A stretch of 64,000 bases of DNA, taken from contig NZ_BCWX01000001.1 of assembly GCF_001894805.1 (NCBI RefSeq), positions 1,178,001 to 1,242,000 on the forward strand. Direction: 5' to 3'. The stretch is from Rhodococcus globerulus NBRC 14531. Its GTDB lineage: Bacteria; Actinomycetota; Actinomycetes; Mycobacteriales; Mycobacteriaceae. Shown piece by piece: positions 13,592 to 29,887 of the stretch. The position numbers and the translations under genes are program-made. Position 1 is the first letter of the stretch. Every line of letters begins with the position of its first letter. The notes below the pieces were generated by a model that did not search any database, was not told the DNA's origin, and worked only from the letters and a program-made list of their open reading frames with translations.

Positions 13592-13624
13592 CGGATGGCG
13601 GGTGAGCTGCCAAACTTGGAGGCA

Positions 13625-13640
13625 TCGAACATAAGTTCGA
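13625..13640. promoter_or_regulatory. LexA/SOS box
   Basis: TCGAACATAAGTTCGA is a perfect match to the actinobacterial/Gram-positive SOS consensus (TCGAAC-N4-GTTCGA). It lies 72 bp before the dnaE2 start. dnaE2 of M. tuberculosis is a known LexA-regulated, damage-induced gene, so position and target agree. Its presence here also argues against starts for dnaE2 upstream of 13640. Confidence 0.93.
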
Positions 13641-13711
13641 TGCACGATGCGTCTTCCCTCCCAGCATCGCGACTGTTCGCAAAGGCACTGTTCGCAAGCG
13701 GTGAGGCAAGT

Positions 13712-16700
13712 ATGGGCTGGGGTAATGGACCGCCGACGTGGTCCGAGATGGAACGAGTTCTGTCGGGACGCGCCGGCCGAGTCGAGCACGAAGATCTGTT
13801 TCCCGGCGACGGAAACGACAGCCCGGCATGGTCACGCAAGCGTGGGGAGTACACCGCCGGTGAACTCGCTCGCGGCAACAGCACCGTGCCGTATGCCGAA
13901 CTTCACGCCCATTCTGCGTTCAGTTTTCTCGACGGCGCCTCACCTCCGGAAGAGTTGGTGGAGGAAGCCGTCCGACTGGGCCTGGAAGCTATTGCCGTCA
14001 CCGATCACGACGGTTTCTACGGAGTGGTGCGGTTTGCCGAGGCTGCTCGAGAATGGGGAATGCGGACGGTGTTCGGGGCGGAGTTGTCCTTGGACTCCAC
14101 ACCGCGAGTGGGGGCGGCCGATCCCGGTGGGACGCACCTGTTGGTTCTCGCGCGCGGGCAGGAAGGCTATCGCCGGCTCTCCCGTGAGATCGCGGCAGCT
14201 CACCTGGCCGGTGGTGAGAAAGGGAAGTTGCAGTACAACTTCGACACCTTGACCGAAGCTGCGGGTGGGCACTGGCAGATCCTGACCGGGTGTCGGAAAG
14301 GTCATGTGCGGCAAGCTCTCACCGCCGGCGGGAAAAGCAGCGCCGCTGCGGCTTTACGGGATCTGGTCGAGCGTTTCGGTGCCGACCGGGTGGCGGTGGA
14401 GCTCACCCATCACGGGTTGCCGGAGGACGACGAGCGCAATGCTGTTCTGGCACAGCTTGCCGCCGAACAGGGATTGCGAACCGTGGCGACCACGGCGGCG
14501 CATTTTGCGGCGCCCCCGCGTCGCCGGTTGGCCATGGCGATGGCTGCGGTTCGCTCCCGGCAGAGTCTGGACGACGCCGCCGGATGGTTGGCTCCGACGG
14601 GTGGGGCGCACTTGCGTTCGGGTGAGGAAATGGCGTCGTTGTTCTCGCTCTACCCGGAGGCGGTCAGCGGAGCTGCCGAACTGGCCCGTGAGTGCGCTTT
14701 CGATCTGAGGCTCATCGCCCCCAAACTGCCGCCGTTCGACGTACCGCCTGGCCGCACCGAGGCGTCGTGGTTGCGTGAGCTCACGATGGCGGGGGCGTTG
14801 GATCGTTACGGGCCGCCAGAGGGTGCGGAGAAGGCGTATCGACAACTCGAACACGAGCTGGCCGTCATCACGTCCTTGGACTTCCCCGGGTATTTCCTCG
14901 TTGTCCACGACATAGTTTCGTTCTGCAAGAACAACGACATCCTCTGTCAGGGAAGAGGTTCCGCGGCAAACTCGGCGGTGTGCTACGCCATCGGCATCAC
15001 CAACGTCGACCCGGTTCGTAACGAGCTCTTGTTCGAGAGATTCCTCGCACCCGAGCGCGACGGTCCGCCGGACATCGACGTGGACATCGAATCCGACCGC
15101 CGCGAAGAGGCAATCCAGCACGTGTACACCAAGTACGGCCGCGAGTATGCCGCACAGGTGGCCAACGTCATCACCTATCGAGGGAAATCGTCGGTGCGGG
15201 ATATGGCTCGGGCACTGGGCTTTTCGCAAGGACAGCAAGACGCGTGGAGTAAGCAGGTCGGACGGTGGGGCGGCATCGACAAGAACGCCGAGACGGATAT
15301 ACCGCGCCCGGTGCTGGAACTGGCCGCACAGATCGAGGGGTTTCCCCGGCACCTCGGTATCCACTCCGGCGGCATGGTCATCTGCGACCGCCCGATTGCC
15401 GACGTCTGCCCGGTGGAGTGGGCGCGCATGGCCAATCGCAGTGTCCTGCAGTGGGACAAAGACGACTGCGCTGCCGCAGGTCTGGTCAAATTCGACCTCT
15501 TGGGCCTGGGAATGCTCTCGGCCCTGCACTACATGATGGATCTGGTAGCCGAGCACAAAGGCGTCACCGTTGATCTGGCGCAGTTGGATCTGCAGGAAAC
15601 TGCGGTGTACGAGATGCTCCAGCGGGCAGATTCCGTGGGAGTGTTCCAGGTGGAATCGCGTGCGCAGATGGCGACGCTGCCGCGTCTCAAACCGCGGAAC
15701 TTCTACGATCTGGTCGTCGAGGTTGCCCTTATCCGGCCCGGTCCGATCCAAGGTGGGTCGGTGCACCCTTACATTCGTCGGCGCAACAAACTCGAACCCG
15801 TCACCTATGATCATCCCTCGCTCGAAAAGTCCCTGAAGCGCACACTCGGTGTTCCGTTGTTTCAGGAACAGTTGATGCAGATGGCCGTCGACGTCGCGGG
15901 ATTCACGCCGTCCGAGGCAGACCAACTGCGTCGAGCCATGGGGTCGAAGCGTTCCACCGAGAAGATGGAACAACTGCGAGCGCGGTTGTATCAGGGAATG
16001 CGCGACCTTCACGGAATCGATGACGCAGTTGCCGACCGTATCTACGAGAAGTTGTACGCCTTTGCCAATTTCGGTTTCCCGGAAAGTCATTCGCAGAGTT
16101 TTGCCGCACTCGTCTTCTACTCGTCGTGGTTCAAACTGCATCATCCGGCAGCGTTCTGCGCCGGACTGCTCCGGGCTCAACCGATGGGGTTCTATTCACC
16201 GCAATCGCTTGTCGCCGACGCCCGCAGGCACGGGGTGCGAGTGCACGGTGCGGACGTCAACGTCAGTCTGGCGCATGCCACCGTCGAAGCGGCGGGGCTC
16301 GAAGTGCGATTGGGGTTGGGCGACGTGCGCAGTATCGGTGACGCACTGGCCGAGAAGATCGTAGAACAGCGCACTCTCGGCGGGCGGTTCACGTCATTTC
16401 TCGATCTGACCGGAAGAGTGGAACTCACGACGGCACAAGCGGAATCGCTGGCGACGGCCGGTGCGCTCGGTAGTTTCGGAATTTCGCGAAGAGAAGCGTT
16501 ATGGGCTGCGGGCGCTGCAGCGGGGGAGCGCCCTGATCGACTACCCGGGATGGGGGCATCGGTCACTGCCCCCACCTTGCCCGGTATGAGCGACGTCGAA
16601 CTGGCGGCGGCCGACGTGTGGGCTACCGGAGTATCTCCCGACACTTATCCGACGCAGTTCCTCCGCCCGCAACTCGACGCACTTGGCGTGGTCCCGGCGT

Positions 16701-16999
16701 CCGGGCTGCTCGACGTTGCGGACGGTGATCGAGTGTTGGTCGGGGGAGCGGTCACCCACCGTCAACGCCCGGCAACCGCGGGGGGTGTTACGTTCATCAA
16801 CCTCGAAGACGAAACCGGGATGGTCAACGTGGTGTGTTCGGTGGGGTTGTGGGCCAAGTACCGAAAGCTGGCCAATACGGCGCCGGCGCTCCTCATCCGG
16901 GGGAGAGTGCAAAACGCAGAAGGCGCTGTGACCGTCGTGGCAGACCGGATGCAGCGCATGGACCTCCGTGTCACGGCGAAGTCTCGGGATTACTGCTGA
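13712..16999 (+). CDS. dnaE2: Error-prone DNA polymerase DnaE2
   Basis: 1095 residues from the ATG at 13712, giving the family N-terminus MGWGNGPPTWSEMERVL; the frame is open back to 13595, but that would put the LexA box inside the gene. The PHP domain begins AELHAHSAFSFLDGAS (about residue 64). The C-family polymerase core has PDIDVDIES with the catalytic Asp pair near residue 455, VFQVESRAQM and FPESHSQSFA, and a C-terminal OB-fold (about residues 1010-1060). It performs translesion synthesis and damage-induced mutagenesis, normally with ImuA' and ImuB. Those partners are not encoded nearby. It is controlled by the SOS box. Confidence 0.96.
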   Translation: MGWGNGPPTWSEMERVLSGRAGRVEHEDLFPGDGNDSPAWSRKRGEYTAGELARGNSTVPYAELHAHSAFSFLDGASPPEELVEEAVRLGLEAIAVTDHDGFYGVVRFAEAAREWGMRTVFGAELSLDSTPRVGAADPGGTHLLVLARGQEGYRRLSREIAAAHLAGGEKGKLQYNFDTLTEAAGGHWQILTGCRKGHVRQALTAGGKSSAAAALRDLVERFGADRVAVELTHHGLPEDDERNAVLAQLAAEQGLRTVATTAAHFAAPPRRRLAMAMAAVRSRQSLDDAAGWLAPTGGAHLRSGEEMASLFSLYPEAVSGAAELARECAFDLRLIAPKLPPFDVPPGRTEASWLRELTMAGALDRYGPPEGAEKAYRQLEHELAVITSLDFPGYFLVVHDIVSFCKNNDILCQGRGSAANSAVCYAIGITNVDPVRNELLFERFLAPERDGPPDIDVDIESDRREEAIQHVYTKYGREYAAQVANVITYRGKSSVRDMARALGFSQGQQDAWSKQVGRWGGIDKNAETDIPRPVLELAAQIEGFPRHLGIHSGGMVICDRPIADVCPVEWARMANRSVLQWDKDDCAAAGLVKFDLLGLGMLSALHYMMDLVAEHKGVTVDLAQLDLQETAVYEMLQRADSVGVFQVESRAQMATLPRLKPRNFYDLVVEVALIRPGPIQGGSVHPYIRRRNKLEPVTYDHPSLEKSLKRTLGVPLFQEQLMQMAVDVAGFTPSEADQLRRAMGSKRSTEKMEQLRARLYQGMRDLHGIDDAVADRIYEKLYAFANFGFPESHSQSFAALVFYSSWFKLHHPAAFCAGLLRAQPMGFYSPQSLVADARRHGVRVHGADVNVSLAHATVEAAGLEVRLGLGDVRSIGDALAEKIVEQRTLGGRFTSFLDLTGRVELTTAQAESLATAGALGSFGISRREALWAAGAAAGERPDRLPGMGASVTAPTLPGMSDVELAAADVWATGVSPDTYPTQFLRPQLDALGVVPASGLLDVADGDRVLVGGAVTHRQRPATAGGVTFINLEDETGMVNVVCSVGLWAKYRKLANTAPALLIRGRVQNAEGAVTVVADRMQRMDLRVTAKSRDYC

Positions 17000-17782
17000 C
17001 AGCGCAAACGATTAGCGTATCCAGCGCATGTTTGGCAATTTAGTTGATGAAATTCACCCCCGATATCACCCTTTTGGTGATTGGCGTCGACGTGGTGTCA
17101 TTCACCCCCGGTTTCATCCTTTCTTTCTCATTCTTTGCCTTGTTGTTCGAGTATCTTTTCGGTGTCCATGGACTCGTCGAGGCAACTGTGGGCGTCCGTC
17201 GGGAAATTTTCGTCGCAGCGCGCGCATGGTGAGGTTTCGGGCTTCCCGCTAGGGACCTTCGGCGATGGTCGACCGTTCGCGGTGGTGTGGTGCAGCGTGG
17301 TGTGCGGGTAAGTGGTCTTCGACCGAAATGCGGTTTAGCTGGTCTTTTAAGCGAAAATGCAGGACAACCCGGCGGCGAATATCAGTCCGATGGGCAGGCC
17401 GGAGTTGATACAGAAGTGAGTGTCGCCCAAAAAATGGGACGAAAGTCACATTGGCGGCAAATGGTCCTAAATCGGGCATGGGAGGAGACGATTCCTCTGG
17501 CAGTTGTCTGCGAGTTACCCGTGAATCTGCTGGCAGTGGGTATTTCTTGATAGCGCGTCGATTTGTGCGGAAAAGAAATACGGCACTCTTGGATTCTAAA
17601 CTTCTGGAATCGAGCAATTTTCGCGCTGGTTTTTTTAATAGGAACGACGTAGCGTCCATCCGTGCAATCAATCAGCTAGTTGAGTAGTGAAGTACAGGCA
17701 AGTGAAGTACAGGGCCGGGTTCCGGACTGGGGAAGCCGGAACACGGTGCGAAGGGGCGGGATTCATCCCGCGGAGGGAAATC
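17000..17782 (+). promoter_or_regulatory. 783-bp leader/intergenic region before the Pls-like synthetase
   Basis: No convincing gene. It is visibly more AT-rich than its surroundings, with runs such as GGTTTTTTTAATAGG near 17630. It contains a direct repeat ATTCACCCCC at 17052 and 17100; a short hairpin ATCACC-CTTTT-GGTGAT at 17065-17081 that may end dnaE2 transcription; a direct repeat of AGTGAAGTACAGG at 17686 and 17701; a stem GTTCCGG/CCGGAAC at 17719-17742; and a second stem GCGGGA-TTCA-TCCCGC at 17756-17771 that abuts the GGAGGG ribosome-binding site (17772-17777). The last two could gate translation of the synthetase. No known riboswitch class is recognised. Confidence 0.5.
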
Positions 17783-20700
17783 ATGTCGGAACACAAGGGC
17801 CTGTGGGCTGACGCCTGGTCCGGGTTGGGGACCACGCACGGCGCTCGGCCTATGGTTCGGCCTACACGGCCTCGCCGCCTGAATCACGTCTTCGAAGCAA
17901 GTGCGGACTCGGTTCCGGGCGCGATCGCGCTCGAGTGCGATGGATTTGCGATCACCTACCGCCAACTCGAAGACCGATCGAATCAGTTGGCGCACATGTT
18001 GATCGGTGAGGGTATCGGGGTTGGCTCACGCGTTGCGATCTTCCTGAACCGCTCGGTAGATACCTACGTAAGCCTATTGGGCGTGCTCAAAGCCGGCGCC
18101 ACCTTTGTGCCGATCGATCCAGGTGCACCGTCCGATCGGGTTGCGTACGTGGTCGAAGACGCCGGAGTTCAGCTTGTGCTGACCTCTACAGAGTTGGAGC
18201 CGAACGCCGAGGAATGCAACGTTGCGCGGCTCACCCTCGACACGAACGTGGCGGTGTTGAACTTCCAGCCGCAGCATCGGCCCGTCCTGGACCTTGCGTC
18301 GGACCCTGACCCGGCCTGCTACATCCTGTACACGTCTGGTTCGAGTGGTCGACCCAAAGGCGTCGAAGTTGCCCAGTCGAGTATCTGCAACTTTCTCGAC
18401 GTGGTTCCCGACGTCTACGATGTTCGGCCGAATGATCGTGTCTACCAGGGTATGACGATTTCCTTCGACTTCTCGATCGAGGAAATCTGGCCCACCTGGG
18501 CCCGCGGCGCAACCATCGTCGCCGGACCGACGGACAGTCGGCGACTTGGCGGCGAGTTGGCGGATTTCCTCGAAGAACGCGCCATTACGACGCTGTACTG
18601 CGTACCGACTCTGCTCGCCACGATCCCGCGCGATCTGCCCAAGATTCGAAATCTGCTGGTCGGCGGTGAAGCGTGCCCGCGTGAGCTGGTGGAACGGTGG
18701 GCGCGTCCGGGCCGCAAGATCCTCAACACGTACGGGCCCACCGAGGCAACGGTCACTGCAACGTGGGGTGAACTCCTGCCAGGTCGGACGGTGACGATCG
18801 GTCGCCCACTCCCGACGTACTCCGTCGTCATTCTCGACGAAGCTCGCGGGCTGGTACCCCACGGTGAGGTGGGCGAAATCTGCATCGGCGGACGCGGTGT
18901 TGCGCGTGGTTATGTCGGACGCCCCGACCTGACCGCCGACAAATTCATCGATCACTTTTCCGTGCCGGCGGGCCAGAAGCTCTACCGGACCGGCGATCTC
19001 GGACGCTGGACGTCCGACGGTGAGATCGAATATCTGGGCCGCGCCGACGCCGAGGTCAAGATTCGTGGTCACCGAGTTGATCTCGGTGAGATCGAAAGTG
19101 TTCTCCTGGAACACCCGTCGGTGTCGGAGGCCGTAGTGGCGCTGGTCGCCGCGTCGGAAAACGAGACGCCGTCGGAACTGTGCGCGTACATGGTGCTGGT
19201 CGACCCGATCGAGGACGAGTACCTGGTCGGGGAACTCGCGAAGGCTGTGTCGCAACGACTTCCGGCGTACATGGCGCCGGCGTTTGTCGACTTCATCCCC
19301 GCATTGCCCGTGATGCCCAGCGGCAAAGTAGATCGATCGAAGCTCCCGGAACCGACCCGGCGACGTTTCTCGGCTCCGACAGGCCCGGTAGTCGAACCCC
19401 GGAACGAGCAGGAAGTAGCGGTTCGCGATATTTGGGCGCGGGCGTTCGGCATACCCGCAGACGAGATGTCGGTCGAAGCGAACTTCTTCGAAGATCTTGG
19501 TGGCCATTCGCTGCTGGCAGCAACGGTTATCTCTGCCCTGCGCGAAAGTGGCATCGGCGCAACTCCCTCGATCCGAGATCTGTACAGCCATCCCACTGTT
19601 CGCTCGATCACGCACGCGCTGGCAGCAGTGGGCTCCCAGCATCCGATTGCCCCGAATGTTGCTGTCAAACACACGGATACGGAAGTGGCTCGCGCCGGGG
19701 GCATCCAGTTGGCAGTGATCTATGTGTTCCTGCTGATCACGACGCTTCCCGTCTCGTACGTCTACACGAAGAACGACGGTTTTGTGTCGGTGCCGGTTCT
19801 GTTCGAGATGTTGGCAGCCATCATGCTCACGTATCTCTGCGTGCGCTGGTTCCTGCCGGTCATCAGTGCGCGCCCACTTGCCGCAGGAATCAAGCCTGGG
19901 CGATACAAACTGTGGGGTCCGACGTATCTGCGGCTGTGGACACTAGACCTGCTCCTCGCGGTCGGTGCTTTGCCCGTGGTCAGCGGATCGCCGTTGATGT
20001 CGATCTATCTCCGCATTCTCGGTGCGCGCGTCGGGCATCGCACTACCATCGCGACGTCCTCGATCTCGTTGCCGACACTGGTCGAGATCGGTGACGGGGC
20101 GTCGATCGGTTACGGCGCGACCATCCGGCCGTGGCGCGTCGAATCCGGTTCGGTGACGGTGGGGAAGATCGTCATCGAATCAGGTGCATTTGTCGGTGCA
20201 AACGTGGTGCTCGAACCTGGATCGACCGTCGGGGTGCGCGCCGCACTCGGTGATCAGTCGCTGCTTCCGTCCGGGCACATCGTGCCGCAGGAGGCCAGGT
20301 GGGCAGGATCGCCGGCAGTGCCGACCGAGTTCTTGGATCCGGCGGTCGAAACCATGATGCGAGCCGAAAGTGTCCGTGCCCGTTGGAAAGTGCGTCATAT
20401 CCTGGCAGCACTCGCCGGTCTGACGGCACTCGAAGTGGGTGCCATCGCCCTGATGGTTCCCGGTATCGCACTGGTCTGGGGCGCCCTCCTGGCTTGGGGT
20501 GTTTTGGCGGGACTGGTGGCGACGTTGTTTACCGGACCGATTTTCGTGATCACTGTCTGTGTTTTTGTTGCAGTGAACAAACGACTCGTTCTTCGCAACG
20601 CGCCTGCCGGAATGCATCCTGTTCGCTCGGGTCTTGGTATCCGCAAGTGGATGGTCGACAAGTTGCTCGAGTTCAGTTTGCTGTTCACGAACTCGCTGTA

Positions 20701-21874
20701 CGCAACGCTGTACACCGCGCCGTGGTTGCGGTTGCTCGGGGCGGACATCGGTCGCGGAGCAGAAGTCTCCACCGTGTCGCATATCGACCCGGACATGCTC
20801 ACCGTCGGCAAGGACAGCTTCATCGCCGACATGGCCAGCGTGGGAAGTGCGAGCTTCGCAAACGGCCGGATCATGTTCCAGCCCACTCGAATCGGCGAAC
20901 GCACCTTCATCGGTAATGCCGCGGTTATCCCGTCGGGTATGGAGATCGGCGACAATGCGTTGATCGGTGTCGCGACGGTGCCGCCTGTGAACGGTGTTCC
21001 GGAAGGCACGTCGTGGCTCGGTTCGCCCGCTATCTACCTGCCGAACCGTCAGGACAGCGGAGATTACGACGACGCGCTCATCTATACGCCGCCGCAGGAT
21101 GTAGTGCGTGACCGCTACGTGATCGAGTTCTTTCGCGCCACCTTGCCACCCACAGTTCTCGGCGTGAGCTTCTACCTCTATCTGTTGGTCTTGTCCTCCT
21201 TGGCATTCGGGCGAGCACTTCCCGTTCCGGCCCTCGTTGCGCCGCTGGTCGCGATGGCGTCGAGCCTTGCGGTGATCGGATTCTGCGCGGCGGTGAAGCG
21301 AAATACTGTGGGTCGCTACGAACCTCGGGTTGAGCCGCTGTGGAGTAAGTTCGTCCGACGGTCCGAATTTGCGACCGGGCTCTACGAAAGTGCTGCCGTC
21401 CCGATTGGCGTCGGGATGCTGGTCGGTACCCCGTTCCTGCCGATGGTGCTGCGCTGGTTCGGCACGACAATCGGCAAGCGAGTGTGGTTCGGAACCACCT
21501 ATCTCACCGAATTCGATCTCGTCCACGTCGGCGACGACGCCACTATCGGAACCGAGTCGTCGCTGCAGACACACCTGTTCGAGGACCGTGTCATGAAGAT
21601 GTCCACGATCACCATCGGCGATGGCGCCAGCATCGGGACACGATCGATCATCCTCTACGACACGGTTGTCGGCGAGGAAGCCTCACTCAGTCCGCTGTCG
21701 TTGCTCATGAAGGGCGAAGAGCTTCCGGCGCGGACGAGTTGGCGCGGAATTCCCGCTGAGGGGATTCGCGCCGACGACAGCTCGACTGTTCTCCTCGAGA
21801 AAGCTGTCCTCGAGAAAGCTGTCACCGACCAAGCTGTCACCGACATCGTCGTCGCGCAAGGAGTGTCCGCATGA
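17783..21874 (+). CDS. Pls/PosA-type membrane NRPS (epsilon-poly-amino-acid synthetase-like)
   Basis: 1363 residues from the ATG at 17783 (GGAGGG upstream). Domain order: adenylation (about 30-530; YTSGSSGRPKG, FDFSIEEIW, NTYGPTEATV, YRTGDLGRW, K515); carrier domain with Ser576 in LGGHSLL; then three left-handed beta-helix acyltransferase-like domains (about 742-840, 982-1082, 1222-1326) separated by membrane spans. There is no condensation or thioesterase domain. This is the layout of Streptomyces epsilon-poly-L-lysine synthetase Pls, which joins one amino acid into a side-chain-linked homopolymer at the membrane. The binding pocket has an acidic residue (E233), compatible with a cationic amino acid. 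The C-terminal tail carries short repeats (LEKAV, LEKAV, TDQAV). Confidence 0.92.
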   Translation: MSEHKGLWADAWSGLGTTHGARPMVRPTRPRRLNHVFEASADSVPGAIALECDGFAITYRQLEDRSNQLAHMLIGEGIGVGSRVAIFLNRSVDTYVSLLGVLKAGATFVPIDPGAPSDRVAYVVEDAGVQLVLTSTELEPNAEECNVARLTLDTNVAVLNFQPQHRPVLDLASDPDPACYILYTSGSSGRPKGVEVAQSSICNFLDVVPDVYDVRPNDRVYQGMTISFDFSIEEIWPTWARGATIVAGPTDSRRLGGELADFLEERAITTLYCVPTLLATIPRDLPKIRNLLVGGEACPRELVERWARPGRKILNTYGPTEATVTATWGELLPGRTVTIGRPLPTYSVVILDEARGLVPHGEVGEICIGGRGVARGYVGRPDLTADKFIDHFSVPAGQKLYRTGDLGRWTSDGEIEYLGRADAEVKIRGHRVDLGEIESVLLEHPSVSEAVVALVAASENETPSELCAYMVLVDPIEDEYLVGELAKAVSQRLPAYMAPAFVDFIPALPVMPSGKVDRSKLPEPTRRRFSAPTGPVVEPRNEQEVAVRDIWARAFGIPADEMSVEANFFEDLGGHSLLAATVISALRESGIGATPSIRDLYSHPTVRSITHALAAVGSQHPIAPNVAVKHTDTEVARAGGIQLAVIYVFLLITTLPVSYVYTKNDGFVSVPVLFEMLAAIMLTYLCVRWFLPVISARPLAAGIKPGRYKLWGPTYLRLWTLDLLLAVGALPVVSGSPLMSIYLRILGARVGHRTTIATSSISLPTLVEIGDGASIGYGATIRPWRVESGSVTVGKIVIESGAFVGANVVLEPGSTVGVRAALGDQSLLPSGHIVPQEARWAGSPAVPTEFLDPAVETMMRAESVRARWKVRHILAALAGLTALEVGAIALMVPGIALVWGALLAWGVLAGLVATLFTGPIFVITVCVFVAVNKRLVLRNAPAGMHPVRSGLGIRKWMVDKLLEFSLLFTNSLYATLYTAPWLRLLGADIGRGAEVSTVSHIDPDMLTVGKDSFIADMASVGSASFANGRIMFQPTRIGERTFIGNAAVIPSGMEIGDNALIGVATVPPVNGVPEGTSWLGSPAIYLPNRQDSGDYDDALIYTPPQDVVRDRYVIEFFRATLPPTVLGVSFYLYLLVLSSLAFGRALPVPALVAPLVAMASSLAVIGFCAAVKRNTVGRYEPRVEPLWSKFVRRSEFATGLYESAAVPIGVGMLVGTPFLPMVLRWFGTTIGKRVWFGTTYLTEFDLVHVGDDATIGTESSLQTHLFEDRVMKMSTITIGDGASIGTRSIILYDTVVGEEASLSPLSLLMKGEELPARTSWRGIPAEGIRADDSSTVLLEKAVLEKAVTDQAVTDIVVAQGVSA

Positions 21875-22611
21875 AATGGGTATCGCTGTCTCAGAACAAG
21901 ACCCGTCGAAGCACGACCTACAGCACGCGGCCGCACCCGCGGGCGCTCGTGTACCGCGGCCCCGCGTCGTTACCGGGGTGCCCGGAAGCCGTCGCAGATC
22001 TGTTGTCGTCGAGCGCCTGGAACTTCGACGTGCGCTTCGTCGGACCGGACGAGGAGTTGCAGATCGACGATTCCACGCTCCATTCGGCGGCGCTGTACGC
22101 ACAACCCGGCGGCGGTGACCTGGACAGGGCGTTCACGCACCTGCGCCGCCATGTTCCGGCGATTCAGCAATTCGTCCGATCCGGTGGACGGTACTTGGGA
22201 TTCTGCCTCGGTGGTTACCTCGCGGGCCGCAGCCCCGGGTTCGAACTGTTTCCCGGTGATGCAGACCAGTACGTCGCGTTGCAGAACGCCGAAGTGCACG
22301 ACACAAAAGGTGCTGTACTCGAGGTGGATTGGAGCGGCCAGATCGAGGAAATGTACTTCCAGGACGGACCGTACTTCTCACTCGACCGGCATTACCGGGA
22401 TTACTACGATTCCGAGGCAGCGATTCTCGCGCGGTATCAGAACGGAAGTATCGCGGCTTTGAAGATCGACTACGGCAAAGGTCGGGTCGGGGTAGTCGGG
22501 CCGCATCCTGAAGCCGACGAATCCTGGTATCAGGGTGACGGTTTGCGGGCACCCGAGCACCTCGCCACCGACCTGGGGTACCGCTTGATCAACGCAGTGA
22601 TGACCCGATGA
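21871..22611 (+). CDS. BPL-N domain (amidotransferase-like) protein 1
   Basis: 246 residues, starting inside the synthetase stop (ATGA). The fold is the class I amidotransferase-like N-terminal domain of biotin-protein ligases (BPL-N). It has RALVYRGPASLPGCPEA, ALYAQPGGGDL, the nucleophile elbow YLGFCLGGYLAG with Cys112, YFQDGPYF, and a conserved GRVGVVGPHPEADESWY with a candidate catalytic His. No signal peptide is evident. Overlap with the synthetase suggests that it acts with it, for instance cleaving, capping or transferring the isopeptide polymer; that function is inferred. A paralogue with an export signal lies 1.2 kb away on the other strand. Confidence 0.85.
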   Translation: MKWVSLSQNKTRRSTTYSTRPHPRALVYRGPASLPGCPEAVADLLSSSAWNFDVRFVGPDEELQIDDSTLHSAALYAQPGGGDLDRAFTHLRRHVPAIQQFVRSGGRYLGFCLGGYLAGRSPGFELFPGDADQYVALQNAEVHDTKGAVLEVDWSGQIEEMYFQDGPYFSLDRHYRDYYDSEAAILARYQNGSIAALKIDYGKGRVGVVGPHPEADESWYQGDGLRAPEHLATDLGYRLINAVMTR

Positions 22612-23843
22612 CAGCCAGTCCGCTCGCGCCGACGGAGCAGATCCCGGTAGTGGAAAAACAGCGACTTCTCGGGATCGACGCCGCCCGCGGTATTGCCCTG
22701 CTTGGCATGATGGCCGTCCACTCACTGATCGCCGTGAGCGACGACGGATCGCCCACGCTGTCCTACGGCATTTCGGCAGGGCGATCGTCTGCGTTGTTCG
22801 CAGTCCTGGCCGGTGTGGGAATTGCCTTCACGACCGGGCGCGCGCGGGTGGAACGCGGTGATCGCGGTGCCACAGCAGCGTCACTGGCAGCGCGTGCAGC
22901 GGTGGTCGGCGTCATCGGATTGATCATGGGATACACGCACGCGGAGCTCGCCGTGGTGATCCTGCCGTACTACGCGATCCTTTTCCTTATCGCTATTCCG
23001 CTTGTCTTCTTGCCTACCCGTGCAGTTGCAGCGCTCGGCCTGCTGATCGCACTTGTCGTGCCGGCCGTCATCGAATTTTTCGGGACATCGCTCCCCGCAC
23101 CGAGCTTGGACAACCCGACGTTGGTCGGCATTATCGAGAATCCACTCGGATGGACCGTCGAACTGCTGTTGAACGGGGAGTTCCCGGCTCTTCCGTGGAC
23201 TGCGTACATCTGTGCCGGTATCGTCATCGGCCGGTTGAAGCTGACATCTGCGAACGTGGCCGGTTGCTTGTTGGTGTTCGGCGCTGCACTTGCAGTCGGC
23301 ACGCGAATTCTGTCCGAGGTCTTGATCTTTCATCTCGGCGGGCTGGAACACCTCATGGCGGGCAGCGAATTGTCGCGCGAGGAAATTCTCGACATCATCG
23401 CCTACGGCGCCGACGGTTCGGTGTTCGGTTCGACGTGGTGGTGGCTTGCCGTCGACGGCCCGCACAGCAGTACGCCGTTGGACCTGTTGGGGACGATAGG
23501 GTCGTCAATGGCCGTGATCGGGGCGATGCTGTTTCTCGGCCACCTGGCGGGGACAAAACTGGATACGTTGGTCAAGGTCGTGATGGTGCCCTTGGCTGCC
23601 GCCGGATCGATGACCTTGACGCTGTATGTGCTTCACATCTGGTTCATCAATTCGAACTACGACACGTACGGCGCGTGGACGGGGTACATCCTGCAGGTTC
23701 TGGCCGCTTTTGCCATCGGACTTTTTGTGAAGTTGACTACCGGGCGTGGACCGTTGGAAGCGTTTGTGACGATGGTGGCAAATCGAAGCAAGCGGGCTGT
23801 TACGGAGAGGGCGTCCACAACTGCTCCGGCGCACCACGCCTGA
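22608..23843 (+). CDS. Multi-span acyltransferase-like membrane protein (DUF418/HGSNAT type)
   Basis: 411 residues with about ten hydrophobic spans. The N-terminus RLLGIDAARGIALLGMMAVHSL is the D-x-x-R-G start shared by DUF418, DUF1624 (heparan-alpha-glucosaminide N-acetyltransferase-like) and acyltransferase-3 proteins. Later signatures are SALFAVLAGVGIAF, GSMTLTLYVLHIWF near residue 335 and a basic C-terminal tail. The family moves acyl groups across the membrane. Its ATG overlaps the stop of the upstream BPL-N gene, so the synthetase, BPL-N protein and this gene form one coupled operon. It could N-acylate the polymer; this is inference. The 3' end overlaps the convergent gene by 44 bp. Confidence 0.8.
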   Translation: MTASPLAPTEQIPVVEKQRLLGIDAARGIALLGMMAVHSLIAVSDDGSPTLSYGISAGRSSALFAVLAGVGIAFTTGRARVERGDRGATAASLAARAAVVGVIGLIMGYTHAELAVVILPYYAILFLIAIPLVFLPTRAVAALGLLIALVVPAVIEFFGTSLPAPSLDNPTLVGIIENPLGWTVELLLNGEFPALPWTAYICAGIVIGRLKLTSANVAGCLLVFGAALAVGTRILSEVLIFHLGGLEHLMAGSELSREEILDIIAYGADGSVFGSTWWWLAVDGPHSSTPLDLLGTIGSSMAVIGAMLFLGHLAGTKLDTLVKVVMVPLAAAGSMTLTLYVLHIWFINSNYDTYGAWTGYILQVLAAFAIGLFVKLTTGRGPLEAFVTMVANRSKRAVTERASTTAPAHHA

Positions 23844-24576
23844 CCGTGTCGACGAGGTCGTGGCCCAGGTCGAATCGGATTCCGTCCGGATTGGTGAGAC
23901 CGCGTGTGTACCAGGACCGCTCGGCTTCCGGGTGTGGTCCGACAACGCCGACGCGTCCGAGGCCGAAGTCGCTGACCACGGCTGCGATCTTCCCGTTGCG
24001 GTAGCGCGCCAAGACCTCCACCGGGGCATCCTCGCGCAGTACGAAGATAGGGCCGTCCTGGAAGAACATCGTGCGTTCCTCCTCGCGCCAGGTGACGTTC
24101 ACGATCGTGTTTCCTGTTGTGTCGATCTCGGACTTGCGGGACGAGATATATCGAGCGGTGTCTCCCGGCAGCAGTCCGAAACCCGGTGTGGCCCCGGCCA
24201 AGTAGCCGCCAAGGCAGAAGCCGAGATAGTGTCCGCCGGTTCGGACCCACTCCCGGATCGACTCCGCATGTTGTTCCATGTGGACCCATGCCGCCGTAAG
24301 TTCCCCGCCGCCGGGTTGTGCATAGAGCGATGCACTCGCCAACGCTGCTGTCGTCAACGGAACATCTTCGTCCGGACCGCAGAACGTCACGTCGTACGGA
24401 TCGGACGAGGATTCGAGTAACCGACCAACCGCCTCGGGACAACCGGGTGATGATGCCGGCCCGCGGTAGACCAAGGCGCGCCGGGGACGGATTCGGGTGG
24501 AATCGGCTGACGCGACAACAGTTCCGCCGATGGTGACCAGCGCAGCAGCCGAGACGAGGAAGGTGCGGCGATTCAT
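23800..24576 (-). CDS. BPL-N domain (amidotransferase-like) protein 2, Tat-exported
   Basis: 258 residues, clearly paralogous to the protein at 21871: the same RALVYRGPAS, CPEAV, LYAQPGGGEL, YLGFCLGGYLAG (Cys121) and GRVGVVGPHPEAERSWY segments. The difference is the N-terminus, MNRRTFLVSAAALVTIGGTVVAS, a twin-arginine (RRTFL) export signal with a Ser/Ala cleavage region. This copy should therefore act outside the membrane, as expected for an enzyme handling an exported polymer. It is transcribed towards the acyltransferase gene and overlaps it tail to tail. Confidence 0.85.
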   Translation of the reverse strand: MNRRTFLVSAAALVTIGGTVVASADSTRIRPRRALVYRGPASSPGCPEAVGRLLESSSDPYDVTFCGPDEDVPLTTAALASASLYAQPGGGELTAAWVHMEQHAESIREWVRTGGHYLGFCLGGYLAGATPGFGLLPGDTARYISSRKSEIDTTGNTIVNVTWREEERTMFFQDGPIFVLREDAPVEVLARYRNGKIAAVVSDFGLGRVGVVGPHPEAERSWYTRGLTNPDGIRFDLGHDLVDTVRRGAPEQLWTPSP

Positions 24577-24743
24577 CGCGTGATCAGTTCAGCTTCGCCC
24601 GGCAATCATGGGTTCACTTTATCGAACTCGTGGTTCGGCCAGGTCGTCGCGTCCGCTGCCGGAGGCACCCGCGTACCGTTACGGCAGAGCTAGGTTACCG
24701 AGGAAAGCCGGCAACGGCCGATACGAGAGTAGGACTGCGCACA

Positions 24744-25055
24744 ATGTTGGAAGTCGATATCACTGCACTGGAAGCGGCACTGGCGACAGGTGAGCCGTTG
24801 ATCGATGTGCGGGAGGCAGACGAGTTCGCCCAGGTGCGTGTCCCCGGTGCCGTACTGATCCCGATGAGCGAGTTCGTCTCGCGCATGGGCGAGATCCCCG
24901 ATGCCGAGACGGTGTACGTGATCTGCGCAGTCGGTGGCCGCAGTCTCCAGGTTGCCGAGTACCTCCAGGGCCGCGGCATCAACGCTGTTTCCGTACGTGG
25001 CGGAACGATGGAGTGGCACCAGTCCGGGCGCGAGGTCGAAACCGGAGCCGTCTAA
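24744..25055 (+). CDS. Rhodanese-like domain protein
   Basis: 103 residues, a single rhodanese domain. It has IDVREADEFAQVRVPGAVLIPMSEF, then the active-site loop CAVGGRS with Cys61, then the closing RGGTMEWHQSGR. The frame is open to 24630, but the ATG at 24744 gives the domain its usual boundary. Single-domain rhodaneses carry persulfide sulfur. The gene ends 4 bp inside the convergent transporter gene. Confidence 0.9.
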   Translation: MLEVDITALEAALATGEPLIDVREADEFAQVRVPGAVLIPMSEFVSRMGEIPDAETVYVICAVGGRSLQVAEYLQGRGINAVSVRGGTMEWHQSGREVETGAV

Positions 25056-26137
25056 GCGGGCGCGGGCAACGCTCCGCTACGGATGGAGTTCACGGTGCGC
25101 GCTGCCACTGTGGCCCAGATCGGGATGAGCGCAAGCAGCAGCGCAGCGGCAACCGCGAGGATCAGTTGTGAACCGGTGGCGATACCAAAAGCGTTGGCGC
25201 CGACGGCACAGGCCCCGATCGGGAAGGTGAAGCTCCACCAGCCGAGCGAGAACGACAACCCGCCTCGCAGGGCTCGGATCGTGACTGTCGTGACGGCGAT
25301 GAACGCCACCACGCCGAGTGCGCCGACTACGGTGCCGTACACAAGCCCGAAGGTGTGCAGGGCGTCGGCGGTGTCTGCGGCGACGGCGTGGCGCGCTGCG
25401 TCGGCCAGGAGATTGGCGGCGCCGATCGACTGGCCGATCACGCCGAGCGGGATCCACAGTGACGGAATGGCATTGAACGGAATTGCGTCGACGCCGCGAG
25501 CACGGTTGTCGGCGAACTGCCGAGCGACGGCTGTGGCGATGATCAGTGCGGCCGAGAGCGCCAGCGCGAACATCACGTAACAGAACACGAGAACCGACGT
25601 GCGGAGTGCACCTTCAGTCAGGTGTGTTGTCACCGCCGCTCCTGTCGTCGCGGAAACCATCGGCGGTACGACGGGCATGAGCCAGAACGGCATGGCCGTC
25701 GCCATGCCGGCGTCGCGGACCAGACGGACCATCATGACGACATAAGTGCACAAGCCCAGGGTTGTGCCCAGCACCCAGAGAGTTATCGAGATTGTCACCG
25801 CCGCGCTGTGGCCGAGATAGTTGGCGCCCGTGACGCCGGTCGCGGACCCGACTGTCACCAGGGCCATTGCCACCGCGCCGTAGAACGGGAACATCGCGGG
25901 GCTACGGAGGTAGGCGAGTGCGAGATCGCGGTGGGTGATCCAATGCGCGGCAAACGCGCCGATCAAAGCGATCAGGATGGCTGCGGCGAGGAACCAGAAG
26001 AGATCCGCCACCACGTGTAGTGCCGCGACCTCATTTTGGAGAGACGCCGCTGCCACCGACACGATTCCCGTTCCCATCGCCGCCGCAAACCAGTTCGGGG
26101 TGATGTGGGCAAATGCGGACGGGGTAGCGGTGCTCAT
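25052..26137 (-). CDS. TDT/SLAC1-family transporter
   Basis: 361 residues from the ATG at 26137; an upstream start at 26200 would lie in the divergent promoter. It opens with the family motif FAHITPNWFAAAMGTGIVSVA and has ten predicted spans, including FWLMPVVPPMVSATTG and LGWWSFTFPIGACAVG. Relatives include TehA, Mae1 (malate) and sulfite exporters; a tetrahedral-anion or C4-dicarboxylate substrate is likely but unspecified. It is divergent from a LysR gene with a dyad between them. Confidence 0.88.
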   Translation of the reverse strand: MSTATPSAFAHITPNWFAAAMGTGIVSVAAASLQNEVAALHVVADLFWFLAAAILIALIGAFAAHWITHRDLALAYLRSPAMFPFYGAVAMALVTVGSATGVTGANYLGHSAAVTISITLWVLGTTLGLCTYVVMMVRLVRDAGMATAMPFWLMPVVPPMVSATTGAAVTTHLTEGALRTSVLVFCYVMFALALSAALIIATAVARQFADNRARGVDAIPFNAIPSLWIPLGVIGQSIGAANLLADAARHAVAADTADALHTFGLVYGTVVGALGVVAFIAVTTVTIRALRGGLSFSLGWWSFTFPIGACAVGANAFGIATGSQLILAVAAALLLALIPIWATVAARTVNSIRSGALPAPA

Positions 26138-26193
26138 GCATTCCAGTGTGTCGGTGTCGGGTTTGCCGACGGTAGATGGCCTGTTGTTGAATG

Positions 26194-26214
26194 CCCACAA
26201 ATGGCGCTTGTGGG
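26194..26214. promoter_or_regulatory. Candidate LysR operator dyad
   Basis: The inverted repeat CCCACAA-N7-TTGTGGG lies in the 91-bp gap between the divergent TDT transporter and LysR genes, 14 bp before the LysR start. Size and place suit a LysR-type binding site that controls both genes. Confidence 0.55.
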
Positions 26215-26228
26215 TCTAATCTGAACGC

Positions 26229-27140
26229 ATGTCGCTGTCCCCGCGAGTCCCGGAACTCAGCGCCCTCGACGTCCTTCTGTCTGTGGGCCGCCTGGGAAGC
26301 ATGGGCGCTGCAGGTCGGGAGCACGGACTGAGTCAACAGGCGGTCAGCGCCCGGGTTCGATCGGTTGAACGCCAACTCGGGATCAAAGTCTTCGATCGTG
26401 CCGCAACCGGTGTTCGCCCGACGGCTGAAGGTGGGCTGATTCTCGAATGGGCCAGTCACATACTTGTCACCGCGGAAGAGATGGCGTCCGGTGTTGCGGC
26501 GCTGCGCGGCGAACGTGACGCGGCTGTCACGGTTGCGGCAAGTATGACCATTGCCGAGTACCTCGTGCCGGGGTGGACGGTAGCCATGCGCCACAAGTTC
26601 CCCAGCGTCGTGGCCTCGGTCAGCCTCCACAATTCTTCCGATGTCTCGGCGCAGGTTCAGGCCGGCCGAGCCGACATCGGTTTTGTCGAAGGTCCGGACG
26701 TGCCGAGCTCACTCGCGTCCTGTGAAGTGGCGCGTGACCATCTTGTTGTTGTTGTGCCGCCAAACCACGAATGGGCTAACGGCGCTCCCGTTCCGGTGGA
26801 GGAGTTGGCCCGCACACCGCTCATTCAACGGGAATCGGGATCCGGGACTCGAATGACACTCGAAAACGCCGTACCTGATTGTGCGCCACCACTTCTCGAG
26901 CTAACGTCGTGCACTGCCGTCAAGGCTGCTGTCGTTGCGGGCAACGCGCCGGCCGTGTTGTCGTCCTTGGCGGTTGCCGCTGATCTCACCGACGGCCGAT
27001 TGGTTGCCGTCACCGTCGAAGGTCTGCGGATGCCCCGCAGATTGCAGGCAGTCTGGGATCCGGTGCGAGGATTGCGCGGCGCGGCGCGGGATTTCCTCGA
27101 CATCGCGCTCGGTTCCAACACTGCTGTTCACTCGCGCTGA
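26229..27140 (+). CDS. LysR-family transcriptional regulator
   Basis: 303 residues. The winged HTH is at about 10-70 (LSALDVLLSVGRLGSMGAAGREHGLSQQAVSARVRSVERQLG, in two conserved helices), followed by an effector domain with VAASMTIAEYLVPGW, QAGRADIGFVEGP and RESGSGTR. It resembles regulators beside TDT or YeiH-type exporters. Divergent arrangement suggests that it controls the TDT transporter; the effector is unknown. Confidence 0.92.
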   Translation: MSLSPRVPELSALDVLLSVGRLGSMGAAGREHGLSQQAVSARVRSVERQLGIKVFDRAATGVRPTAEGGLILEWASHILVTAEEMASGVAALRGERDAAVTVAASMTIAEYLVPGWTVAMRHKFPSVVASVSLHNSSDVSAQVQAGRADIGFVEGPDVPSSLASCEVARDHLVVVVPPNHEWANGAPVPVEELARTPLIQRESGSGTRMTLENAVPDCAPPLLELTSCTAVKAAVVAGNAPAVLSSLAVAADLTDGRLVAVTVEGLRMPRRLQAVWDPVRGLRGAARDFLDIALGSNTAVHSR

Positions 27141-27143
27141 GGC

Positions 27144-27611
27144 TCAGACAGCACCCTTGAATCCGTGTTGACGCCACGCTTCATAGGTGACCAACGCCGC
27201 TGCGTTGGAGAGATTGAGTGAGCGTCGGCCGGGGAGCATCGGGATACGCAGACGCTCGGTGATGTGCTCGTCAGCCAGGACTTCCTCGGACAAACCCGTC
27301 GGTTCGGGACCGAAGAGCAGAACGTCGCCGGGTTCGTACGCGATATCGGTATACGGGACGGTTGCATGTGCGGTGAAGGCAAACACCCGTGCCGGGGTTA
27401 CGGCCTCCCACGCTGCAGTTAGGTTCTCGTGGACAGTCACGGTCGCCAAGTCGTGGTAGTCCAACCCCGCTCGCTTGAGCTTCGGTTCGGACAGGTCGAA
27501 CCCGAGTGGGCCCACCAGGTGTAGTTCACAACCGGTTCCCGCGACCATGCGGATCGCGTTACCGGTATTGGGTGGAATGCGGGGCTCGTGGAACATGACT
27601 CGGAACACCAC
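27144..27611 (-). CDS. trmL: tRNA (cytidine(34)-2'-O)-methyltransferase (TrmL-like)
   Basis: 155 residues, the length of TrmL/YibK. It starts MVFRVMFHEPRIPPNTGNAIRM and has the SPOUT knot motifs LLFGPEPTGLSEEV and RIPMLPGRRSLNLSNAAALVTYE. It methylates the wobble nucleotide of some Leu tRNAs in homologues. GTG start at 27611 (another GTG is the next codon). Convergent with the LysR gene, 3 bp apart. M. tuberculosis carries the orthologous gene as spoU in the same region. Confidence 0.93.
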   Translation of the reverse strand: MVFRVMFHEPRIPPNTGNAIRMVAGTGCELHLVGPLGFDLSEPKLKRAGLDYHDLATVTVHENLTAAWEAVTPARVFAFTAHATVPYTDIAYEPGDVLLFGPEPTGLSEEVLADEHITERLRIPMLPGRRSLNLSNAAALVTYEAWRQHGFKGAV

Positions 27612-27726
27612 AAAACCCTACCGCGCATGCCATTGGCGGCCGCGATGTCGGGGTTTTTCCCATTCAGTTACCAAACTGCAAAGTTTGTGGGAATCTGATT
27701 GCCGCATTCTTCTCAGAACGGACAAA

Positions 27727-28377
27727 ATGAACACTCCTGCCGGTTGGAATCCCGACCCCTTCGATCCGACGATCGACCGCTACTGGGACGGCCAGCAGTG
27801 GACGGCTCAAACCCGTCCCAAAATTGTCGACGCCCCGACGCAGGTGTTCGGAGCACCAGGCTCGCCGCGGCAGGATCCCACCGCACCGGACGATCAGAAA
27901 CGCCGCAAGTGGCCGTGGATCGCGGGCGTTGCCGCAGCCGGGGTTGCGGTAATCGGAATTGCGGCAGGGACGGGAGGCTCCGAAGAGTCGAAGACCCCGG
28001 CGGCGACTTCCTCGACGACAGTGGCAGCGACAACTACGCAGGCAACGACAACGACCACAGTCAAGCCCACAACCACGACCGTCGCGCCGGCGACCACCAC
28101 GACGGTGGCTCCGACTACGACGACAACACTCGCCATAGTCCCGTTAGTTCCGCAAGTAACCACAACGACCCAGTACGTTCCACCGCCTCCCGCCTACGTG
28201 CCGCCGAAGACGACTGAGCCCGCGTACATTCCGCCGCCGGTCAAGGTGCCTGATGCCGGGGTGTATTACGCGAACTGCTCAGCGGTAAAGGCTGCTGGTG
28301 CAGCGCCGATCTACCGCGGTGACCCGGGCTATTCCTCGAAGCTCGACCGTGACAACGACGGCGTGGCCTGCGAGTAG
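27727..28377 (+). CDS. DUF2510 / excalibur domain protein
   Basis: 216 residues from the ATG at 27727. N-terminal DUF2510 (PAGWNPDPFDPTIDRYWDGQQWT), then a membrane span (about 62-80), a Thr-rich linker of roughly 60 residues (TTTT, TVAP repeats), a Pro-rich stretch and a C-terminal excalibur domain with the calcium-loop sequence LDRDNDGVACE. The N-terminus should be cytoplasmic and the excalibur domain outside. Surface anchoring or Ca-binding is suggested by the domains, with no known function. A 6-bp dyad CAAACT-GCAA-AGTTTG lies 40 bp upstream. Confidence 0.9.
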   Translation: MNTPAGWNPDPFDPTIDRYWDGQQWTAQTRPKIVDAPTQVFGAPGSPRQDPTAPDDQKRRKWPWIAGVAAAGVAVIGIAAGTGGSEESKTPAATSSTTVAATTTQATTTTTVKPTTTTVAPATTTTVAPTTTTTLAIVPLVPQVTTTTQYVPPPPAYVPPKTTEPAYIPPPVKVPDAGVYYANCSAVKAAGAAPIYRGDPGYSSKLDRDNDGVACE

Positions 28378-28422
28378 TAGGCGGTCGAGTTGCTGTCGGT
28401 AGTGCGGGGCAGTATGTAGGTC

Positions 28423-29031
28423 ATGCCCCTCGAAGAATCCGACAACGTAGTCGGCGAAGACTATTCCGATGCTCGATTGCCGGGAAAGGTGTGGCGCCAG
28501 CGCACGTTCACCAATTGTGTGTTCCGTGACGCAGACCTGACTGGCATGACGACGGAATCGGTGGTCTTCGACAATTGTGACTTCACCGGCGCAGATCTGG
28601 GGGAGTCGGAGCACATCGGTAGCGCGTTCCGTTCGTGCAACTTCGCGCGGACCAGCCTGTGGCACAGCACTTTCCGAAACTGCACTTTGATGGGCTCGAC
28701 GTTCGACGGATGTCGCATCCGGCCGTTGACGCTCGACGAGGTGGACTTCTCGCTCACCTCGTTGGGCGGCGCGGATCTGCGGAGGATCGACTTCACGTCA
28801 TGCCGCTTCCGCGAAGCGAATCTCGTGCGCACGGATATGCGTGATGCGATTCTGGTATCGGCGGATCTGTCGGGCGCTCGTACCGGTGGACTCAAACTCG
28901 ACGGCGCGGACCTGCGCGGCGCGCGCGTCGATCCGGGTCTGTGGACGTCTGCAGTCGTGGCAAACGCCAAGATCGAATTGATGCAGGCGGTGGCGTACGC
29001 GTCGGCGCACGGTTTGGTTGTCGACCTGTAG
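28423..29031 (+). CDS. Pentapeptide-repeat protein
   Basis: 202 residues made almost entirely of A(D/N)LxX-type five-residue repeats (FRDADLTGM, FDNCDFTGADLG, DLRRIDFTSCRFREANLV, DLSGARTGGLKLDGADLRGARV). They would fold as a right-handed quadrilateral helix. Some members (MfpA, Qnr) mimic DNA and protect gyrase; nothing here shows that activity. It ends with a short helix. Confidence 0.9.
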   Translation: MPLEESDNVVGEDYSDARLPGKVWRQRTFTNCVFRDADLTGMTTESVVFDNCDFTGADLGESEHIGSAFRSCNFARTSLWHSTFRNCTLMGSTFDGCRIRPLTLDEVDFSLTSLGGADLRRIDFTSCRFREANLVRTDMRDAILVSADLSGARTGGLKLDGADLRGARVDPGLWTSAVVANAKIELMQAVAYASAHGLVVDL

Positions 29032-29054
29032 ATGCAACCGGTCAACAGCGGGAG

Positions 29055-29330
29055 TTACCGCTCCAGGCGTTCCTCGAGCCGAACCGTCACGACGTCACCG
29101 ACGTCCTTGCCGATAGCTGTGCGGATGTCGGCCTTGACCGGGAGCTTGTGAGTGCCGTCGCCCAAGGCCATGAACGAACTCTGAAACGGATGCCCGTCGA
29201 TAGTTCCGCGCACCTTGACCAGTCCACGGGTACGGAAGTATTCGGCGGACTCCGGCCAGATCACGTATGTCCAGCCACCTTTCGCGTCACTTTTGCGCAG
29301 TGTGGCGGTGAATACCTTGTCCAAAAACAT
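29055..29330 (-). CDS. DUF1905 domain protein
   Basis: 91 residues covering a complete DUF1905 domain: [56 protein letters not shown] is split over the core strands, and DVVTVRLE closes it. Function unknown; the domain forms a small beta barrel in known members. It lies 22 bp after the GNAT gene on the same strand and is probably cotranscribed. Confidence 0.88.
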
Positions 29331-29352
29331 GGTGGCATGCCCTTTCGGTTGG

Positions 29353-29865: not shown

Positions 29866-29887
29866 GCATCGACCCTAACCTGGAACA

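Follow-up and report, generated by a model that had tools for sequence, protein, structure and literature searches.

Organisation of the locus

The 64-kb window analysed here, by which we mean the whole stretch of DNA under study, comes from the 6.73 Mb genome of the soil bacterium Rhodococcus globerulus NBRC 14531. At positions 17783 to 24576 it contains a group of four genes headed by a membrane-bound nonribosomal peptide synthetase of the Pls/PosA family, together with two genes for proteins of the Pfam family BPL_N and one for a multi-span acyltransferase resembling HGSNAT. The features of this locus are as follows.

17783..21874, + strand: Pls/PosA-family membrane nonribosomal peptide synthetase, 1363 residues (ATG at 17783, stop ends at 21874; adenylation code DFEYLGTVTK)
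17891..19327, + strand: adenylation domain, residues 37-515 (Pfam AMP-binding and AMP-binding_C; coordinates computed from residues)
19418..19621, + strand: carrier (thiolation) domain, residues 546-613 (Pfam PP-binding)
19712..21757, + strand: C-terminal membrane polymerisation region, residues 644-1325 (TIGR02353, model positions 12-695 of 695)
21871..22611, + strand: BPL_N protein 1, 246 residues (Pfam BPL_N; no signal peptide seen)
22608..23843, + strand: HGSNAT-like multi-span acyltransferase, 411 residues (Pfam HGSNAT_cat)
23800..24576, - strand: BPL_N protein 2, 258 residues, with a twin-arginine (Tat)-like signal (Pfam BPL_N; tail to tail with the acyltransferase)

These coordinates agree with the layout given in the original prediction, which had described a 1363-residue synthetase, ATG/stop overlaps and a second BPL_N gene lying tail to tail. 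The synthetase and BPL_N 1 genes are joined by a 4-bp ATGA overlap (21871-21874), as are the BPL_N 1 and acyltransferase genes (22608-22611), and the 3' end of the BPL_N 2 gene overlaps that of the acyltransferase gene. Assignment of the first protein to the Pls family, also proposed at the outset, is borne out by the NCBIfam model TIGR02353 (576.9 bits against a cut-off of 423.1) and by Pfam matches to AMP-binding (residues 37-377, 269.5 bits), AMP-binding_C (436-515), PP-binding (546-613) and Hexapep repeats (62.7 bits). A simple hydropathy scan finds 7 membrane-like segments, and the Pfam results for the synthetase include no condensation or thioesterase domain. The protein has the architecture of Pls and PosA, with adenylation and carrier domains followed by a membrane terminal domain of about 700 residues; its presumed three-fold beta-helix plan rests on the Hexapep matches and on the published PosA model (PMC10522769).

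Conservation of the gene set

The partner genes travel with the synthetase. Its relatives were taken as the best 80 of 394 encoding stretches from a scan of genome contigs, bearing 24 genus-level names (one of them a family-level bin); genes were called with a caller trained on synthetase codon use, profiles were built from neighbour clusters, and neighbour families were named from one representative each. A BPL_N gene is present in 65/80 loci (including L072, where the gene lies in pieces and was scored as present), an HGSNAT-like gene in 49/80 and an M1 peptidase gene in 28/80, and the acyltransferase shares the locus in 46 of the 65 cases with BPL_N. BPL_N occurs under 21 of the 24 names, and under 18 it stands with the acyltransferase in one locus. 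The closest named relatives at the synthetase locus are Rhodococcus sp. IEGM 1379 and ARC_M6, the former (L034) carrying the genus label Gloeocapsa in our tree, a naming artefact. Among rarer neighbours, a phosphopantetheinyl transferase gene is found in 12/80 loci and one for a DDAH/arginine-dihydrolase-like protein in 15/80, mostly between the synthetase and BPL_N. One such pentein (L036:13034-13840) scores 200 of 300 bits with the NCBIfam dimethylargininase model and 140 with that for arginine dihydrolase; it might be a source of ornithine or ammonia for diaminopropionate.

Controls were provided by synthetases of lysine code. The same genome encodes a second Pls-type synthetase (G000:C10:6598-10422, L132), whose code DAESIGTVVK has the letters of Pls (7wew) at the aligned positions and whose gene has an M1 peptidase gene adjacent; by analogy with Streptomyces albulus PD-1, R. 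globerulus NBRC 14531 may thus make two cationic polymers. Seventeen loci of this kind were drawn from 33 full-length low-identity ones, with flanks of about 8 kb (limited by the contig start in R. globerulus itself), and all 17 combine the code DAESIGTVVK with an M1 peptidase, whereas BPL_N and the acyltransferase are found in 0/17 each. The Lys-type loci of S. noursei (L141) and S. celluloflavus (L140) follow the same pattern, as do 25 paralogue loci, for the most part of identical genes, taken with shorter flanks of 1.5 kb (M1 in 25/25, BPL_N and HGSNAT-like in none). The S. noursei M1 protein matches 20/20 control M1 proteins (itself included) and 28/28 of those from loci with a D-F-E code, and the HExxH motif is present in all of both sets. 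The original prediction was to be given up if the BPL_N and acyltransferase genes never accompanied the synthetase; the census of 80 loci finds that they do.

Could these genes merely adjoin the synthetase? The size of the dnaE2-trmL interval in which they lie varies within the genus, as it would at an insertion hotspot, and neighbours might gather there by accident. Against this, BPL_N accompanies 65/80 synthetases of this type and 0/17 of Lys code, so that the partnership is not a matter of chance; moreover, BPL_N lies within a co-directional run behind the synthetase in 64/80 loci, 86/89 BPL_N genes share the synthetase strand, and 99/164 intergenic gaps among family genes in the run are no longer than 10 bp (stop codons counted outside genes). 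The probability left to a chance neighbourhood is virtually nil, and the census together with the Lys-type control loci rules it out.

The association was also followed in the reverse direction. BPL_N is present in 15 of 200 genomes of the order and, leaving out R. globerulus, lies within a synthetase cluster in 12/14, a set that partly overlaps the 80 loci and is therefore a second direction of analysis, not an independent sample. In the remaining two genomes, both of one genus, a lone BPL_N gene encodes a protein with a Tat-lipoprotein-like start, and the genomes hold other Pls genes. Across 296 genomes of the phylum, weak or partial BPL_N matches of 18-34 bits occur in 22 besides our own, and TIGR02353 (at E 1e-80) matches none of these 22; the 14 other surveyed genomes that it does match show no BPL_N. 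Hence, specificity for this operon lies in the close subfamily and not in the Pfam BPL_N family at large.

Adenylation code and substrate

The adenylation pocket reads DFEYLGTVTK. Pocket positions were set from the GrsA motifs and then verified on HMMER alignments to PosA (8g95) and Pls (7wew); in the former, D229, F230, E233, Y272, L292, T316, V324 and T325 coincide with the published PosA code letters (PMC10522769), and D229 and E233 correspond to Asp217 and Glu221 of PosA, the pocket Asp/Glu for the alpha- and side-chain amines. Position 2 is reported to be Phe in the synthetases of polydiaminopropionate (PDAP) and polydiaminobutyrate (PDAB), Met in PosA and Ala in Pls (PMC10522769). The synthetase of R. 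globerulus has Phe there, as in the PDAP type and, equally, the PDAB type; the marks of an epsilon-polylysine system, Ala at this position and a PldII-type M1 partner, are not those seen, and the 64-kb window gives 0 matches to M1 peptidases. The pocket code thus disfavours Lys or Orn, the monomers first proposed, and fits 2,3-diaminopropionate or 2,4-diaminobutyrate (PMC10522769), of which L-2,3-diaminopropionate appears the most likely. D-F-E with G-T-V-T-K is found in 80/80 named synthetase relatives and in 118 of the best 120 of 5,994 matches to the S. noursei protein, the two exceptions being one sequence that lacks positions 1-3 and another in which I replaces V. This constancy makes one narrow substrate class likely across the relatives.

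The BPL_N proteins

Each of the two BPL_N proteins matches the Pfam family with 61.9 bits (cut-off 24.2), and the two are 52% identical and share the same motifs. As had been predicted, one lacks and the other carries an export signal: BPL_N 2 begins with MNRRTFLVSAAALVTIGGTVVASADS, which by eye resembles the twin-arginine start of a Tat signal, and has one hydrophobic segment. The predicted model of BPL_N has a class I glutamine amidotransferase (GATase) fold whose closest solved counterparts are glutaminase subunits, and Cys112, His212 and Glu214 of BPL_N 1 are invariant in the family alignment; fold and conserved residues together give the putative Cys-His-Glu triad of the class I GATase family. 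When PDB sequences were searched with profiles for BPL_N and for the acyltransferase, 0 matches were returned, and among the best 120 of 2,441 BPL_N matches none is named as a tested enzyme. An exported BPL_N copy is present in 21/80 loci at a hydropathy threshold of 1.5, and none of these 21 loci also has an M1 gene (likewise 0/14 at a threshold of 1.9). Two further observations concern this family. In L050, L053, L055 and L057, BPL_N copies with export signals lie upstream of the synthetase, L053 having three exported copies in total; and in Dactylosporangium maewongense (P0002) a BPL_N protein of 440 residues scores 556 bits and possibly represents two fused BPL_N domains.

The acyltransferase

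The acyltransferase matches Pfam HGSNAT_cat with 38 bits (cut-off 22), Acyl_transf_3 remaining below its own cut-off. His38 and His286 are invariant and Arg27 nearly so in 41 aligned proteins, and the spacing Arg27-x10-His38 resembles the R-x10-H motif of membrane acyltransferases. The predicted model (pLDDT, predicted local distance difference test, 91.7) finds HGSNAT as its top PDB fold match (8vli_B, TM, template modelling score, 0.52, E 2e-4). With this domain and a multi-span fold, the protein is acyltransferase-like and multi-span as originally described, and the description can be refined to HGSNAT-like, human HGSNAT being an amine N-acetyltransferase. An HGSNAT/DUF418-like gene is also present at a diaminobutyrate-type locus of S. 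celluloflavus (L139:13071-14300), so the range of partners of this acyltransferase is wider than that of BPL_N.

Proposed mechanism and alternative explanations

We propose that the four genes are a single functional unit that makes a cationic homopolymer, with short diamino acids joined by isopeptide bonds, and that includes BPL_N hydrolases and an acetylation step; we hold this reading tentatively, at slightly short of even chances. Its computed basis is the content, coupling and conservation of the genes, the code, and the predicted fold with its triad, from which we infer substrate identity, hydrolase activity, acetylation and the biological role of the gene set. The synthetase would adenylate the diamino acid and load it onto the carrier domain, and the membrane domain would use the side-chain amine to link one unit to the next, as has been reported of Pls, PosA and the PDAP synthetase. 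We see in the BPL_N proteins probable amide hydrolases, with a class I GATase fold and a Cys-His-Glu triad, which would cleave or trim the polymer, a job parallel to that of the M1 peptidase PldII on epsilon-polylysine: BPL_N 1, in the cytosol, could clear or release polymer formed inside, and BPL_N 2, exported by the Tat route, could act in self-protection, chain length or recycling. The HGSNAT-like protein would pass acetyl groups from cytosolic acetyl-CoA to amines outside the membrane, so that the polymer or its termini would be less charged. Of the roles first envisaged for BPL_N, that of a hydrolase is the most plausible, ahead of general tailoring.

The same triad and fold would also suit a true glutamine amidotransferase, with glutaminase subunits as its closest solved folds; its ammonia might go into diaminopropionate or free the chain with an amide at the C terminus. 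For S. albulus PD-1, ammonia has been proposed as the nucleophile in diaminopropionate formation (PMC4668381), and in this genome neither of the diaminopropionate synthase models SbnA and SbnB reaches its cut-off. An export signal on BPL_N 2 and on copies in 21/80 loci fits poorly with such a role, since a glutamine pool is not expected outside the cell, and no acceptor synthase subunit is recognised beside BPL_N; we consider it quite unlikely. We likewise doubt that BPL_N and the HGSNAT-like protein tether the polymer to wall or lipid, or decorate it, through transamidase or acyl-transfer reactions in place of degradation. Foldseek does list homoserine acyltransferases of the BPL_N fold (2vdj, 7cbe), and the frequent company of the acyltransferase described above would suit this role, but in the stretches fetched, BPL_N stands without the acyltransferase at 14/17 Streptomyces and 4/4 Microbispora loci, and the enzyme that sets the precedent next to a related synthetase, PldII, hydrolyses its polymer. 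Finally, the scheme could hold with another monomer, 2,4-diaminobutyrate or an unreported small diamino acid, which we judge rather unlikely. The shared Phe of PDAP and PDAB synthetases and the scarcity of SbnA/SbnB speak for it; against it, the sole diaminobutyrate-type locus examined (L139) has a different code, DFECLSAVTK, and the nine frequent annotated neighbour clusters of the 80 loci, rarer clusters lying outside the annotation, include no transaminase or aspartokinase.

Several findings weigh against our proposal of a diaminopropionate polymer with dedicated hydrolases and acetylation. BPL_N is missing from 15/80 relatives and hence not essential, 3 of these loci (L045, L056, L086) having contig ends within 0.8 kb of the synthetase. 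The GATase fold does not by itself show hydrolase activity, its nearest solved folds being glutaminase subunits. The hydropathy threshold for export was lowered from 1.9 (14 loci) to 1.5 (21 loci) after the values had been seen, 31/80 loci have neither an exported BPL_N nor an M1 peptidase, and the mutual exclusion of these two is not significant across independent pairs in a tree that leaves out L045, L056, L072 and L086 (median p 1, range 0.25-1, with few pairs). The acyltransferase model resembles HGSNAT in fold only weakly (TM about 0.5, best E 2e-4); at L139 an HGSNAT-like gene stands behind a diaminobutyrate-type synthetase, with no BPL_N; and the acyltransferase is absent from the fetched stretches of 17/17 Streptomyces and 4/4 Microbispora loci, which makes it an optional part of the operon and not a core one. 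As to precursor supply, the best scores in this genome are 255.6 for SbnA (cut-off 349.95) and 133.3 for SbnB (cut-off 326.9), and of the 22 carrier genomes searched with SbnB, 6 exceed the cut-off and 16, S. noursei among them, do not. A different route to diaminopropionate, from Ser and Orn, has been described (PMC4668381), so that missing SbnA/SbnB is not decisive; the result neither supports nor excludes diaminopropionate.

Genomic setting

The locus was originally placed between dnaE2 and trmL, and this position holds. The gene for error-prone DnaE2 is the upstream neighbour of the synthetase, and on the other side of the four genes come rhodanese, SLAC1-type, LysR and SpoU methylase genes, the last of them being the following feature.

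27144-27611: SpoU methylase, trmL-like

Rfam gives 0 matches within 13000-30000. Within the genus, dnaE2 and trmL share a contig in 23 genomes, and the distance between them is about 10 kb in the 4 carriers (R. globerulus itself, G004, G010 and G021) and 2.5-3.4 kb in 15; the synthetase cluster seems to have been inserted into a variable region. The other 4 genomes (G009, G014, G016, G017) have 12.9-14.6 kb of different content there, as might be seen at an insertion hotspot.

Significance and comparison with known systems

A synthetase of this kind is known; the operon with BPL_N is apparently undescribed within the open-access literature searched, which is weak on chemistry journals and, among the papers listed, yielded nothing fitting on BPL_N together with Pls-type synthetases, in line with the original prediction. 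Nor did any of the papers listed there name PDB entry 8www. More generally, it is possible, and we suggest it with some reserve, that each type of cationic homopolymer synthetase has a dedicated hydrolase. The diaminopropionate type would employ a novel class of GATase-fold cysteine isopeptidases as a cytosolic and Tat-exported pair, the exported one replacing M1, and would add trans-membrane acetylation, in a so far undescribed make-modify-degrade system spread over some twenty actinobacterial genera. If true, this would explain chain release and short chain length, both stated to be unknown for PDAP synthetase (PMC4668381). A putative nucleophilic-cysteine enzyme present in most operons of one substrate class (65/80) is a concrete candidate for these steps, and its inside and outside versions are separately testable. 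The proposal would also give this BPL_N subfamily its first function, and would offer enzymes for tuning antimicrobial cationic polymers and many possible producers outside Streptomyces.

S. albulus PD-1 is a close relative of S. noursei. It makes epsilon-polylysine and PDAP, and its PDAP synthetase was demonstrated by disrupting the gene and by expressing it in another host (PMC4668381). Two TIGR02353 genes are present in S. noursei A-2-1, one of Lys code with M1 (L141) and one with the code DFEYVGTVTK and a BPL_N gene starting within 10 bp (L083), the probable orthologue of PDAP synthetase. By this analogy PDAP synthetase probably belongs to the D-F-E clade, and the system of R. globerulus shares with it the Pls/PosA architecture and Phe at code position 2 (PMC10522769). 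The excerpts of PMC4668381 consulted make no mention of a BPL_N neighbour, and they give the gene as 4,338 bp, longer than the 4,266 bp open frame in S. noursei.

The gamma-poly-L-diaminobutyrate operon resembles our locus in the Phe at position 2 and an HGSNAT/DUF418-like neighbour. In S. celluloflavus its synthetase, the third such gene of the genome (L139), is followed by genes for a class III aminotransferase, an aspartokinase and the HGSNAT/DUF418-like protein, the first two corresponding to the dat and ask that adjoin pldA (PMC8117764). It differs in having this transaminase and aspartokinase, in its code DFECLSAVTK, in 45% identity of the synthetases and in that BPL_N is not in the fetched stretch.

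Of the partner proteins, BPL_N shares predicted fold and Cys-His-Glu motif with the class I glutamine amidotransferases Pdx2/YaaE and HisH and with the gamma-glutamyl peptidase GGP1, from which it differs in sequence (11-20% identity), in standing without a recognised synthase partner and in having an exported isoform. The acyltransferase shares HGSNAT_cat and its best fold matches with the transmembrane human HGSNAT, at a TM of about 0.5 and 12-15% identity.

A functional parallel is that of the epsilon-poly-L-lysine synthetase Pls and PldII, in which a synthetase is likewise coupled to a polymer-degrading enzyme. In S. albulus, PldII is translationally coupled to pls, lies outside the membrane and is described as the major epsilon-polylysine-degrading enzyme (PMC9223678, PMC8117764). 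Its M1 family membership is taken from the PldII-like gene beside the S. noursei Lys-type synthetase. The two synthetases differ in code (DAESIGTVVK as against DFEYLGTVTK) and are 29-36% identical, and where Pls is paired with a zinc M1 peptidase, the synthetase of R. globerulus is paired with a predicted cysteine protein of GATase fold.

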